The notes beneath the pieces were generated by a model. That model was not told where the DNA came from. It made no database searches and worked only from the letters and a program-made list of their open reading frames with translations. A stretch of DNA of 64,000 nucleotides from Hydrogenoanaerobacterium saccharovorans (GTDB taxonomy: Bacteria; Bacillota; Clostridia; Oscillospirales; Ruminococcaceae). Made by a program: the position numbers and the translations under genes. Positions 1 to 4,190 of this stretch are shown here, one piece after another (the first letter of the stretch is position 1; every line of letters begins with the position of its first letter). The stretch lies in NCBI RefSeq assembly GCF_016901815.1, contig NZ_JACSNR010000007.1, forward strand, positions 1-64,000, written 5' to 3'.

Positions 1-290
1 AATTTGACACGAAGTTAAGATTTTGTCCTGACACCCGGAAACTGACCCTCTGATTTGCTTTCCCCTGGTGGCGTCTCTGGCTGCCCTGGGGCGCCCTCGA
101 CTGCTGGGCCAACTTCGGGCCAATTTGGCCCGAAGTTAAGATTTTGTCCTGGCACCCAGGAGCTGACCCGGTGTTCTGCTTCCCCAGGGGCGTTGTTGCC
201 GGCTCCGAGGCGCTCTCGACTGCTGGGCCAACTTCGTGTCAAATTGACACGAAGTTAAGATTTTGTCCTGACACCCTGGAGTCGGCCCAT
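1..290. repeat. Tandem array of about 120-bp units, each with a perfect palindrome
   Basis: At least two and a half units are visible. The right arm of a palindrome (ending GAAGTT) recurs at 16, 137 and 256, a period of 121 then 119 bp. Complete palindromes lie at 111-137 and 230-256, each with 13-bp arms around one unpaired base. The arms read AACTTCGGGCCAA in one and AACTTCGTGTCAA in the other, so both arms changed together. Each copy is followed by AAGATTTTGTCCTG and a C-rich stretch, and the unit ends in CGACTGCTGGGCC; the middles are more diverged. The array continues beyond the left edge. No convincing gene lies here. The same palindrome and flank occur inside parB at 1734-1764. Confidence 0.85.
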
Positions 291-637: not shown

Positions 638-928
638 TTATTTACCAAACAAATCGCTGTGCGTACCTGTGCGGGTCAGGGTCAGCACCAGAACATCGTT
701 TTCAATCCGGTAGATCAGCAGCCAATCCGGTTGAATGTGACATTCCCGGTGCCCTATCCAATTACCAGACAAATCATGGTCCTTTTGATTCTCGGCGAGA
801 GATTCTCCTGCCGCCAGCAACTCGATGGTGTTTTCCAACAGCTCAATTTTAAGGCCACGCTTTATTGCCCGCTTATAGTCCTTCTTGAACTGTGTGGTAA
901 ATTTCACAGTATATTTGAGTTCTTTCAT
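638..928 (-). CDS. YafQ-family toxin of type II toxin-antitoxin system
   Basis: A 96-residue RelE-superfamily protein, predicted to be a ribosome-dependent mRNA endonuclease. The C-terminal half carries the YafQ pattern: His51, His64, Asp68-Trp69, Arg86, His90 and Phe94, matching the catalytic His/Asp/His/Phe set known from the E. coli enzyme. The N-terminus (KFTTQFKKDYKRA) is typical of the family. The ATG overlaps the antitoxin stop by four bases, so the two are translationally coupled. Length is normal and all expected catalytic residues are visible, so it is likely active or recently active. It sits on accessory DNA next to partition genes and probably stabilises the element. Confidence 0.9.
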   Translation of the reverse strand: MKELKYTVKFTTQFKKDYKRAIKRGLKIELLENTIELLAAGESLAENQKDHDLSGNWIGHRECHIQPDWLLIYRIENDVLVLTLTRTGTHSDLFGK

Positions 929-1200
929 GCCTTCAAATCCTTAAACAATTCATCGAGATCGCTGTATCCCTTTACAGCAGGGTCTTTCGCAATTCTCTCT
1001 GCTTCAATCATGGCAGCAATCGTTTCCTTGTTCGGATTCTCCAACTTGATCTCGAAGGGAATCCCACCCTCCCGAAGCGACTGACGGACAAAAATATTGA
1101 ACGCAGTAGAGAGATTCATTCCCAAAGCGTTAAACAAGGCATCAGCCTGTTTTTTCAGCTCTGGATCCATGCGAATACTGATATTTGTAGTTTCTGCCAT
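925..1200 (-). CDS. RelB/DinJ-family antitoxin
   Basis: A 91-residue antitoxin. Residues 5-45 form the ribbon-helix-helix DNA-binding region (TNISIRMDPELKKQAD... followed by STAFNIFVRQ), and the acidic C-terminal tail would wrap the toxin. I chose the ATG at 1200 rather than the longer frame to 1254 because AGGAG precedes it at good spacing and the upstream residues are not family-like. The gene is the first of a two-gene operon with the YafQ-type toxin, with a four-base overlap. A sigma-A promoter lies directly upstream. Confidence 0.9.
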   Translation of the reverse strand: MAETTNISIRMDPELKKQADALFNALGMNLSTAFNIFVRQSLREGGIPFEIKLENPNKETIAAMIEAERIAKDPAVKGYSDLDELFKDLKA

Positions 1201-1290: not shown

Positions 1291-2226
1291 TTACTCTTCC
1301 ACTCCGCTTTCGTCATTCTGTGCCTTCCACTTTTCCAGCAGCGAGAAGATCACTTCCTCCATCTGCTTCTGGGAATAGCTTTCCGGGAAGTACTGCCGGA
1401 TCTTCTTCTCCTTGATAGTGATTCGGACTGGCGGCGCCGGCTTACTGCAAAGGGCTGAGTAGGCAATATCAAAGCTGAAGGATCCATCTTGGCTGCTCCC
1501 TCTAAGCTGCACAGCCTGGGCCAGCGACACAGAAGAATCCGTGGTCTTGAGGATCTCTGCCACCATCTTCTGGTCCTCTGGCTTCATGAATGACAGGTTA
1601 TAGGCTGAGTTCAAGGGGATTTTCTTTTCGTCCACTCGATCAAGCAGCTCCGGGATCAGTTCTGTAAGACGGATAAAACGCTGGATGGTTCTCGCACTAT
1701 TGTCGGTTCCCTTGGCTACCTGTTCATCCGCTCTTAACTTCGTGTCAAACTGACACGAAGTTAAATCCGTCCTGACGCCCTGGTGTTTCATGGCTTCCAT
1801 CTTCATGCGATACGCCCACGCTTTTTCACTGGGCAGCAGCTCCTCTCGCTGGAGATTGCTGTCCACCATGACTATGGTGGCAGCGTCATCATCGAGATCC
1901 TGAACTATCGCCGGGATAGTTCCCAGGCCGAGCAGTTCACAAGCGTGTTTGCGGCGATGTCCGGCAATCAGCTCGTACCCCTCGCCCCGGTCCGCAGGCA
2001 TGGGTCGGACGATCACCGGGACCAGGACACCCTGCTCCCTGATGCTGTCCACCAGCTCCTGCATATCGACATCGTCCCGCACCTGGAACGGGTGATGAGC
2101 GAAGCTGTGAAGGCTGGACAAAGGGATCTCTCGGATCTTCTCCCTATTGGCGCCCTGATCGCTGTTGCTGACAGCGAACAGATCGTCAATCGTGTTCAGT
2201 TTCATTTTGCTTTTCATGCTGTTCAA
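1291..2226 (-). CDS. parB: ParB-family partition protein
   Basis: A 311-residue ParB/Spo0J-like DNA-binding protein for segregation or maintenance of the element, presumably binding a parS-like site and working with the ParA ATPase just upstream. The N-terminal ParB domain spans about residues 30-135, with the nucleotide-binding-type motif GHRRKHACELLG at 89-100. A helix-turn-helix follows at about 168-187. Residues 155-165 are encoded by a perfect 31-nt DNA palindrome directly before the helix-turn-helix. The start is a TTG at 2226, preceded by AGGAGG nine bases away; the next ATG (2217) is too far from that site. The gene lies 24 bases downstream of parA. Confidence 0.93.
   Translation of the reverse strand: MNSMKSKMKLNTIDDLFAVSNSDQGANREKIREIPLSSLHSFAHHPFQVRDDVDMQELVDSIREQGVLVPVIVRPMPADRGEGYELIAGHRRKHACELLGLGTIPAIVQDLDDDAATIVMVDSNLQREELLPSEKAWAYRMKMEAMKHQGVRTDLTSCQFDTKLRADEQVAKGTDNSARTIQRFIRLTELIPELLDRVDEKKIPLNSAYNLSFMKPEDQKMVAEILKTTDSSVSLAQAVQLRGSSQDGSFSFDIAYSALCSKPAPPVRITIKEKKIRQYFPESYSQKQMEEVIFSLLEKWKAQNDESGVEE
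1734..1764. repeat. Perfect 31-nt palindrome inside parB
   Basis: Arms TTAACTTCGTGTCA (1734-1747) and its exact complement (1751-1764) enclose a three-base loop. The palindrome and its flank toward GTCCTGACGCCC match the repeat units at 1-290. In parB it encodes residues 155-165 in frame. Confidence 0.95.
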
Positions 2227-2250: not shown

Positions 2251-3042
2251 CTACTTCTCAAGTCTCAAAACCTCTCGTGTAAGATTGATATAACCTTCAG
2301 CCACCTTCCCGCCGGGATCATAAGCGAAAATGCTCTTACCCTCGACGCTGATTTCCTTGGCCCGGACGGAATGGGGGATCTCAGTGTCGAACACTCTGAT
2401 CTGGCTGCCATAAGTCTCTCGCAGCAGAGCTGAAGTCTCCTTGGCAAAATTGGTGCGATTGTCCACCATGGTAAGCAGGATTCCTTCGATCTGAAGGCCA
2501 GGATTGATCTGCCGTCTCACTCTTTTGACCGTCTGCAGAAGCTGTTCAAGCCCCTTGGCGGGGAGGTACTCAGCCTGGACCGGGATAATGATCGTGTCGG
2601 CGGCGGCCAGGGCATTGATAGTCAACATACCCAGGGAAGGCTGGCAGTCGATGAGGATATGGGTGTACTGTTCCTTGACGGTGTCCAGGTACTGTCTCAG
2701 GACCGTCTCACGGCTCATGGCGTTCACCAGGGAGACCTCCATACCGGACAGCTGGATGTTCGCCGGGAGCAGATCCACCCCTTCCGAATGATGCAGGATG
2801 CCTTCCCCAGGACGCAGCGGTTCGTCCATCATGATGCGGCCCATCGCATCGGACAGTGTAAAGGGCAGCTGGTCCGGCTGGGGATAGCCCAGGCTGATGG
2901 TGAGGCTTCCCTGCGGATCGGCGTCGATCAGCAGGACTTTCTTTCCCGCCCGTGCGAGGGCGATACCCAGGTTTGCGGTAGTCGTGGTCTTGCCCACGCC
3001 GCCCTTCTGGTTGACAATGGCAGTTATTTTACTGGTCTGCAT
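2251..3042 (-). CDS. parA: ParA-family partition ATPase
   Basis: A 263-residue ParA/Soj-type Walker ATPase that would bind nonspecific DNA and pull ParB complexes apart. The deviant Walker A motif KGGVGKTTT lies at about residues 13-21, Walker A' at VLLIDADPQGS and Walker B at HILIDCQPSLG. Length is typical for a soluble ParA without an N-terminal regulatory domain. AAGGAAGG precedes the ATG. It is co-oriented with and immediately upstream of parB, and follows the initiator-like gene across a terminator, a layout common on conjugative elements of Firmicutes. Confidence 0.95.
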   Translation of the reverse strand: MQTSKITAIVNQKGGVGKTTTTANLGIALARAGKKVLLIDADPQGSLTISLGYPQPDQLPFTLSDAMGRIMMDEPLRPGEGILHHSEGVDLLPANIQLSGMEVSLVNAMSRETVLRQYLDTVKEQYTHILIDCQPSLGMLTINALAAADTIIIPVQAEYLPAKGLEQLLQTVKRVRRQINPGLQIEGILLTMVDNRTNFAKETSALLRETYGSQIRVFDTEIPHSVRAKEISVEGKSIFAYDPGGKVAEGYINLTREVLRLEK

Positions 3043-3109: not shown

Positions 3110-3168
3110 AAAAAAGCACCGCCTAAAAATCAGGCGAAACCATGTCGTGGTTCACCTGAGAGGCGGTA
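3110..3168 (-). terminator. Long hairpin terminator overlapping the initiator 3' end
   Basis: Arms ACCGCCT (3118-3124) and AGGCGGT (3161-3167) enclose a second inner stem, and the minus strand then runs into TGCTTTTTTATG. The structure overlaps the last codons of the gene at 3123-4190. Confidence 0.75.
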
Positions 3169-4190
3169 TGGTTACTCATGGTGGTAACAGAGTTGAAAAG
3201 CACTGTCAACAGGTATTGCTTCATGTTCCGTATCTCTGTGGTATTATTCTTCAGGCATTGCATTACATAGCGAATATGATCGCTATTCAGATTCAGAAAA
3301 CGCTGACGCACAATCTCCGCATCGAAATCGCCGCTGGCTATCCGCATAACCTTGCGTTTGGCACATACAGTTTCGACTATCAGCTCAACTATTTCATCCA
3401 GCTCATCTTTGCGATCCAGAAATGCCTTACACAGATGCTCGTACTCGATATTCTCCAGCACCTGCTTCCGATAGCTTTCTGCTCTGGTGTACTTCACTGT
3501 TTCCCTTCCCTTCTCTTCCGGGTGAAAGGAAGGATAGGAAAGGAAAGGAATAGAATCAGTATTTGATCTATCAGTATTTGATCTATCAGTATTTGATCTA
3601 TTAGTATTTGATCTATTAGTATTTAATTGCGCGGTCATTTCCGTATATGGCTTAACCATATCCGGATTTTCCGTATATGGTGAAGTCGTATATGGAGAAG
3701 CCGTATTTGGAGATGCTTCAGAAGAATCACTCGCTTCCGGTTCAGTGCTCGGGCATTGGAGGCCTCCGATCGGCTCGGGCACTGCGGCGGCGGCGCTGGA
3801 GGTGGCCTTCCGCTTTCCAGCCTTTCCCTTCTTCGGTTCCGCTGCCCCTGACTTGGGCGGCTTGGAGGAGGGCGGACATGGATCACTCGGCTTGCTCTGT
3901 GGCTGCTCGTAGATTATGTACTCGGTATCTGTGATCTGCCCTTTCTCATTGCGCAGTTGGTTCCGGACGATGTAGCCGGCAGCTTCCAGCTCCCGCAGAG
4001 CGCTGCCAATGGCATCCACCCCTTCCTTGCACATCTTTGCGAGGCCTCGGTTTGTATAGTTCCATTCATCGGGCAGCGACAGCATCATCGATAGCAGTCC
4101 TTTGGATTTTAACGACAATGCTGGATTGCGCAAATGATGGTTAGACATGATCGTGTAATCCCGGGTTCGTTGAACTCTGAAAATTGACAT
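3123..4190 (-). CDS. Replication-initiator-like protein (winged-helix N-terminus, DUF6017-like C-terminus)
   Basis: A 355-residue protein. Residues 1-95 (SNHHLRNPALSLKSKG... then LPDEWNYTNRGLAKMCKEG) resemble the winged-helix region of plasmid/ICE replication initiators. Residues about 100-215 are low-complexity linker with Lys/Pro/Ser-rich and Asn-Thr-Asp-Arg-Ser repeats. Residues about 225-340 form a helical C-terminal domain like that seen in DUF6017 proteins on Tn916/Tn1549-type elements. The linker is encoded by 15-bp DNA iterons (3556-3629), as in initiator genes that contain their own origin. It starts one base before the end of the upstream small gene. The role in replication is inferred from architecture and the neighbouring parAB. 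Confidence 0.72.
   Translation of the reverse strand: MSIFRVQRTRDYTIMSNHHLRNPALSLKSKGLLSMMLSLPDEWNYTNRGLAKMCKEGVDAIGSALRELEAAGYIVRNQLRNEKGQITDTEYIIYEQPQSKPSDPCPPSSKPPKSGAAEPKKGKAGKRKATSSAAAAVPEPIGGLQCPSTEPEASDSSEASPNTASPYTTSPYTENPDMVKPYTEMTAQLNTNRSNTNRSNTDRSNTDRSNTDSIPFLSYPSFHPEEKGRETVKYTRAESYRKQVLENIEYEHLCKAFLDRKDELDEIVELIVETVCAKRKVMRIASGDFDAEIVRQRFLNLNSDHIRYVMQCLKNNTTEIRNMKQYLLTVLFNSVTTMSNHTASQVNHDMVSPDF
3556..3629. repeat. Five 15-bp iterons inside the initiator-like gene
   Basis: The unit TCAGTATTTGATCTA is perfect at 3556-3570, 3571-3585 and 3586-3600. TTAGTATTTGATCTA follows at 3601-3615 and a degenerate copy at 3616-3629. They encode the Asn-Thr-(Asn/Asp)-Arg-Ser repeats at about residues 188-212. 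A second set of looser CGTATATGG repeats follows at about 3650-3710. AT-rich direct repeats of this kind are what replication initiators bind. Confidence 0.9.

Follow-up and report, generated by a model that had tools for sequence, protein, structure and literature searches.

At the left edge of the 64,000-nucleotide stretch analysed here (the window), which begins at the start of a contig of Hydrogenoanaerobacterium saccharovorans (NZ_JACSNR010000007.1, here C56), lies the right end of a tandem array in which every unit carries one palindrome and the two arms of the palindrome change together between copies. What are these palindromes, and what keeps their arms matched while the sequence changes? 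The original prediction described three copies of 27–31 nt at a period of 119–121 bp. The period is borne out, with spacings of 121 and 119 bp, and three palindrome matches were found where none were expected from dinucleotide shuffles. Two of the copies are full 27-bp palindromes, and the first is cut down to its right half by the contig edge, where the window begins. The exchange of GTGTC/GACAC for GGGCC/GGCCC is a genuine change on both arms. When the sequence is extended leftward, as had been proposed, the array goes on at the end of contig C65, which adds two further full copies and one half, all with the GTGTC core. The claim that a base in the flank tracks the stem in every copy fails there, as the first C65 unit has GTGTC/GACAC arms followed by CCTGGCACCC, the flank that had been assigned to GGGCC. 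The assembly breaks inside the array, between C65 and C56, and the copies counted therefore give no total array length. A protein repeat was ruled out as the basis of the array, since neither 119 nor 121 is a multiple of three, and a comparison of the array DNA with plasmid and phage collections gave no match.

The first reading of the palindrome copies was also incomplete. A palindrome with the GTGTC core of the array lies 1.5 kb away from it, within a parB gene (Table 1). The DNA that follows the array palindrome (GTCCTGACACCCTGGAGT) agrees with the parB DNA beside the in-gene palindrome at 16 of 18 bases, a score reached by 0 of 5000 shuffles, so the array unit appears to include a fragment of parB. 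The GTGT core of parB is found in all countable array copies except one, which carries a foreign GGGC core. From the shared core and the parB fragment in the units, the window array is probably a tandem array seeded by copying of the in-gene site.

Table 1. Positions of the array, the parB gene with its site, and neighbouring features in the window.
Feature	Position	Strand	Remarks
Tandem array, right end	1–282		Units of ~120 bp, one palindrome per unit; continues on contig C65 (L020:4577-4826)
Half palindrome (right half), GTGTC core	1–16		Cut by the contig edge
27-bp palindrome AACTTCGGGCCAATTTGGCCCGAAGTT	111–137		Core GGGCC/GGCCC, unlike that of the parB on this element; the one copy with the foreign core
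27-bp palindrome AACTTCGTGTCAAATTGACACGAAGTT	230–256		Core GTGTC/GACAC, the same as in the site within parB
Array flank, homologous to parB coding DNA	265–282		16 of 18 bases identical to window 1769–1786
parB, 311 aa, ParB_N domain	1291–2226	-	Loop inserted between the ParB core and the helix-turn-helix
Specificity cassette (palindrome and helix-turn-helix codons)	1659–1779	-	Limits estimated from the drop in DNA identity in 13 pairs of relatives with swapped cassettes
Predicted recognition helix codons	1660–1695	-	Residues 178–189; specificity residues 178, 179 and 182
Codons of residues 165–167 (R, A, D)	1726–1734	-	Site base -7 varies with R165 and D167 (Caulobacter 160 and 162)
Palindrome within parB	1736–1762		In frame, about residues 155–164, LTSCQFDTKL; probable ParB-binding (parS-like) site
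parA (AAA_31/ParA ATPase)	2251–3042	-	Directly upstream of parB
DUF6017/HTH_36 protein	3123–4190	-	Replication-initiator-like (inferred); contains 15-bp tandem repeats

The gene product matches the ParB_N domain (PF02195) with 71 bits against a cutoff of 26.3, and scores 20.8 bits for HTH_ParB, just under the Pfam cutoff of 22.6, which a relative (L067) passes with 23.9 bits. Its nucleotide-binding motifs (GxRR and N-x-x-R-x..PxE) read GHRR and NLQREELLPSE and are nearly invariant in alignments, and the product of the adjacent gene matches AAA_31 with 188.7 bits. AlphaFold2 predicts a confident ParB fold (mean pLDDT 81) that superposes on Noc, ParB and KorB structures, with fold matches to 7nfu (Z 16.3), 6t1f (Z 16.0) and 4umk (Z 9.9) on the side of chromosomal ParB and Noc, and to 8qa9 (Z 14.8) and 1r71 (Z 7.4) for KorB. 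The loop encoded by the palindrome (residues 152–163) has a pLDDT below 50 and directly precedes a confident helix-turn-helix (helices 166–172 and 178–189); ParB structures that do not have the loop show a gap across it in the alignment. Genes for a YafQ-type toxin and a RelB-type antitoxin lie between the array and parB, at window 638–1200. The 15-bp tandem repeats of the DUF6017 gene, at window 3555–3624 and 3671–3713, code for NTDRS-like and PYTxS-like repeats.

The site is common among relatives of this gene. A search across the order with the pattern ACTTC-NNNN-CAA-N-TTG-NNNN-GAAGT, with the core left free, gave matches with almost perfectly complementary cores in 51 of 394 genomes. Most of these matches are in parB at the same codons, and with a covariance model, sites of this kind were detected in 76 of 245 genomes from the order. 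With loci added from genome and viral collections, 129 non-identical ParBs were assembled, and an in-gene palindrome lies at the same codons in 125 of them (about 97%). The ParBs without it are those of L041 and L233 (the same protein), L166 and L196, and the palindrome of L184 is weak. ParBs with the in-gene site come from gut Clostridia and other Firmicutes, and the hosts in the records include Faecalibacterium, Gemmiger, Flavonifractor, many Lachnospiraceae, Desulfotruncus and Paenibacillus. Among these relatives the four core bases are highly variable yet symmetric, and the outer arms vary symmetrically as well (ACTTC, ACTTG, AATTA, AAATT); symmetric arm changes are not peculiar to the window array. 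For most elements, the retrieved flanks contain no copy besides the in-gene one. No account of variable in-gene parS sites or of site-helix cassettes was found in the open-access papers on parS and ParB that were searched.

Variation in the core is matched by variation in the protein. The core bases were compared by mutual information, in an unsupervised way, with every ParB column that lies outside the palindrome, and the highest-ranking columns were those of window-ORF residues 187, 175, 190, 173 and 186 (stop-to-stop frame numbering), which are equivalent to Caulobacter residues 174, 162, 177, 160 and 173. These five columns lie in and just before the helix-turn-helix, with a summed mutual information of 1.6–2.5 against a 95th percentile of 0.21. 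The equivalence is based on alignment at the conserved Ser172 and Arg/Asn178 together with a ParB structure alignment; in a Caulobacter co-crystal, Q162 and R173 contact parS (PMC7383237). Counted over 89 non-redundant cassettes, Arg160 occurs with G(-7) in 24 of 24, Arg162 with G(-6) in 16 of 16, Arg or Lys174 with G(-5) in 29 of 29, Asp174 with G(-4) in 11 of 11, and Lys177 with G(-6) in 13 of 13. Taken from a neighbour with less than 70% backbone identity, six residues predict 3.42 of the 4 core bases, compared to 1.89 for the nearest backbone and 1.68 at random.

The same code also holds for most ParBs that have their sites outside the gene. The protein shared by L041 and L233 (genome G417) has lost its in-gene palindrome and is accompanied by many sites with GGGC, the core expected for its IKQ helix (relatives with GGGC have VKQ). 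The outside sites of L166 (CCGA, helix GRT) and L196 (GTGC, helix ARQ) also carry the expected core. The more distant ParBs of L188, L189, L192 and L198, with the helix YKK, have GGGA or TGGA sites, which in L189 flank parB. Left unexplained by the code are nearby palindromes in L173/L026 (helix VAR, GGGC site) and L174. For the ParBs of L191 and L175, which have no in-gene site, no site was found nearby either.

Close relatives often differ in exactly this region, as do the ~90% identical proteins of L067, L056 and L043, whose cassettes are unlike. A backbone identity of 90% or more is shared by 228 ParB pairs, and 149 of these differ in core and helix. In 13 such pairs the DNA identity is ~90% outside, falls to 60% just before the palindrome and to 36–48% over the helix-turn-helix codons, and is back to 89% at 90 bp past the centre. 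As the dip is limited to the cassette, the site and its reader change together within ~120 bp. One element carries two parB genes ~2 kb apart (L272 and L273) with unlike cassettes, ACTTGTGCCC with RNQIQ and ACTTCCGCCC with RNQIS.

From sequence comparison, that is, from the site and its symmetry, the residue-base covariation, the cassette swaps and the homology between array and parB, it is highly probable that the palindromes are ParB-binding, parS-like sites embedded in parB and that the window array was seeded from the in-gene site. We infer that ParB binds them, that they function in partition and that exchange of the cassette allows escape from incompatibility. Most likely the palindromes would serve a mobile element, which codes for both ParA and ParB, as the parS-type centromeres of its parABS system. 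ParB dimers would nucleate on the palindrome, which sits within parB in DNA coding for a floppy loop just ahead of the helix-turn-helix. A dimer that reads both half-sites symmetrically would require any change in recognition to show in both arms, which is the compensatory change seen here. With the site and the reading residues within ~120 bp, a single recombination event could replace both and give a new matched specificity, and the in-gene location would link the two so that recombination seldom parts them. A new matched specificity could plausibly provide the escape from elements using the same site, and selection for such escape may plausibly account for the diversity. Most relatives would rely on the single site in parB, and in the window amplification would have turned it into an array next to parAB, comparable to the multi-site centromere sopC.

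Among the closest known systems are chromosomal ParB/Spo0J-parS and Noc-NBS, which share the ParB_N and helix-turn-helix fold with the window ParB and set specificity at the same residue positions (PMC7383237). Chromosomal parS is nearly invariant and 16 bp long, whereas the parB-family site described here is ~25 bp with a hypervariable core; also unlike chromosomal parS, it lies in an inserted loop beside the helix-turn-helix codons and is exchanged with them. One B. subtilis parS is located inside spo0J.

It is possible, though we think it doubtful, that the palindromes are instead operators, and that the main role of ParB, like that of KorB, is to regulate transcription of its own and adjacent genes, with partition secondary or absent. 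KorB of the RK2/IncP plasmids is also a ParB-family protein and a structural match to the window ParB (8qa9), and its operator O_B is likewise a palindrome with an odd centre. O_B differs in being 13 bp long and fixed, and it is not known to have an in-gene site coupled to its reader. Conjugative elements in genomes G044 (L021 and L022) and G417 (L233) carry 11–16 GGGC-core sites dispersed through the transfer region, several of them 20–90 bp upstream of genes, a layout that resembles the KorB operator network. An in-gene site could furthermore serve as a roadblock, and its being the only copy in the fetched flanks of most elements would suit autoregulation. On the other hand, that single site lies within parB rather than at a promoter, parA is adjacent, and a tandem array adjoins parAB in the window. 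The two roles could occur together, and KorB-like regulation is an alternative or added role mainly for elements of the G044 and G417 type, with their many dispersed sites.

The residue-base correlation itself might be read as hitch-hiking of clonal cassette blocks, with the palindrome serving some other purpose, for example as a target of the recombination by which the cassette moves. Exchange does involve the cassette as a whole, and the association could in part reflect shared ancestry within a cassette inherited as a block. As a full explanation we regard this as unlikely, for the associations are position specific and chemically sensible (Arg and Lys with G, Asp with G/C), the core is far less associated with the remaining variable residues of the cassette than with the code residues, and the code also applies to sites located outside parB.

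Still less probable is a mobile hairpin, similar to the Rickettsia palindromic element, that inserts in frame in protein genes and of which one copy landed in parB. The idea came from copies in G044 that lie in and between genes, including in frame in proteins other than ParB such as a CHAP peptidase, and it was dropped as nearly all ParBs carry the site at exactly one codon position. Dispersed copies occur in just a few elements rather than at many unrelated positions in unrelated genes, and a mobile repeat has no reason to track DNA-reading residues with its core.

The symmetry of the arms is a separate question, as the palindrome also codes for protein. When the protein was held fixed and synonymous codons were redrawn (an earlier version of this control used a fixed centre), the observed 11.5 matched positions of 12 compared to 7.7 at best after the redraw, and 0.2% of draws reached the observed value. 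The best palindrome elsewhere in the same parB genes averages 8.4 of 12 positions, and at the Ser codon the third position, which is silent, matches its counterpart in the other arm in 76 of 78 cases. Over 53 distinct sites from many genomes, the arms pair in 96.6% of cells against 72.3% in shuffles, and covariation, which the original prediction had asked to be tested, scores 0.531, compared to 0.093 in shuffles and no more than 0.113 with the arms slid. Judged by these controls, symmetry is maintained at the DNA level, beyond the needs of the protein. The earlier suggestion of selection on structure is strongly supported as regards the matching of the arms, but the constraint looks like the dyad symmetry of a double-stranded protein-binding site and not that of a folded strand, because the arm mismatches (9 G-U and 19 A-C) have no G-U bias and the core covaries with DNA-reading ParB residues. 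Arm-to-arm gene conversion, which had been offered as another explanation, is unnecessary to account for the pattern. A hairpin conserved as RNA or single-strand DNA, such as a regulatory structure in the parB mRNA, would agree with the strong covariation of the arms, but we consider it very improbable and dropped it on the mismatch types and the residue-base code; in addition, the outer arm positions keep their sequence and sites also occur out of the gene and in arrays.

With the palindromes taken as ParB sites, the array of the window can be set beside sopC. The sopC centromere of the F plasmid consists of tandem repeats with one palindrome each, beside a parAB-type operon. Its unit is 43 bp, compared to ~120 bp in the window, and the window array differs further in carrying a parB fragment and in sharing its core with the site inside parB.

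The swapping of the in-gene site and its reader as one small cassette is a natural experiment in protein-DNA recognition. Each parB of the family records its own target beside the residues that read it, so a further matched pair of protein and site comes with every new genome; about 89 distinct ones have been recovered. This makes a helix-turn-helix recognition code directly readable and testable, and offers imaging and plasmid engineering a large set of candidate orthogonal ParB-parS pairs. Mobile elements may also have here a simple route, of one recombination step, to a changed segregation specificity. The variable loop of these proteins (LTSxQxxxKL, RPSKENxSQVGTN) would be explained by a function in the DNA and not in the protein.

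ParB-type palindromes also occur in elements of another kind. Intergenic arrays of 3–6 such palindromes with unlike cores, ~33–38 bp apart, were seen at L227:7960-8152, L228:8200-8394, L229:6408-6507 and L304:9896-9989, with six sites each in L227 and L228, and some sites in these arrays join two different half-sites. The elements are mobilisable: they have a relaxase, in most of them a serine recombinase or tyrosine integrase is visible, and no parB was seen nearby. A DNA search for further copies of the six-site array gave one clear array-like region (that of L304) and otherwise single palindromes. SGI1 hijacks the IncC parABS system through parS-like sites (PMC10954446), and is likewise a mobilisable element bearing ParB sites without its own parB; the arrays seen here differ from it in mixing several cores in one intergenic region. 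Known ParB cores account for 10 of 16 half-site cores in these arrays against 9.5 among composition-matched random cores (P = 0.51), and this lack of enrichment leaves poly-specific hijacking a conjecture. Tentatively, the cassette may set the incompatibility group of conjugative elements, with rare types selected, and mobilisable elements that have no parB may carry many-core arrays in response, to be segregated by any resident ParB. Single palindromes with GACA-like cores at L304:5536, L311:6199, L312:1425 and L231:7436 adjoin small genes that, judged by eye, resemble TnpV of mobilisable transposons. In viral contigs, a different palindrome, TTTGTGCTCATTATGAGCACAAA, lies ~100–130 bp upstream of distantly related ParB-like genes (L219:687 and 2340, L222:6424, L225:9872).
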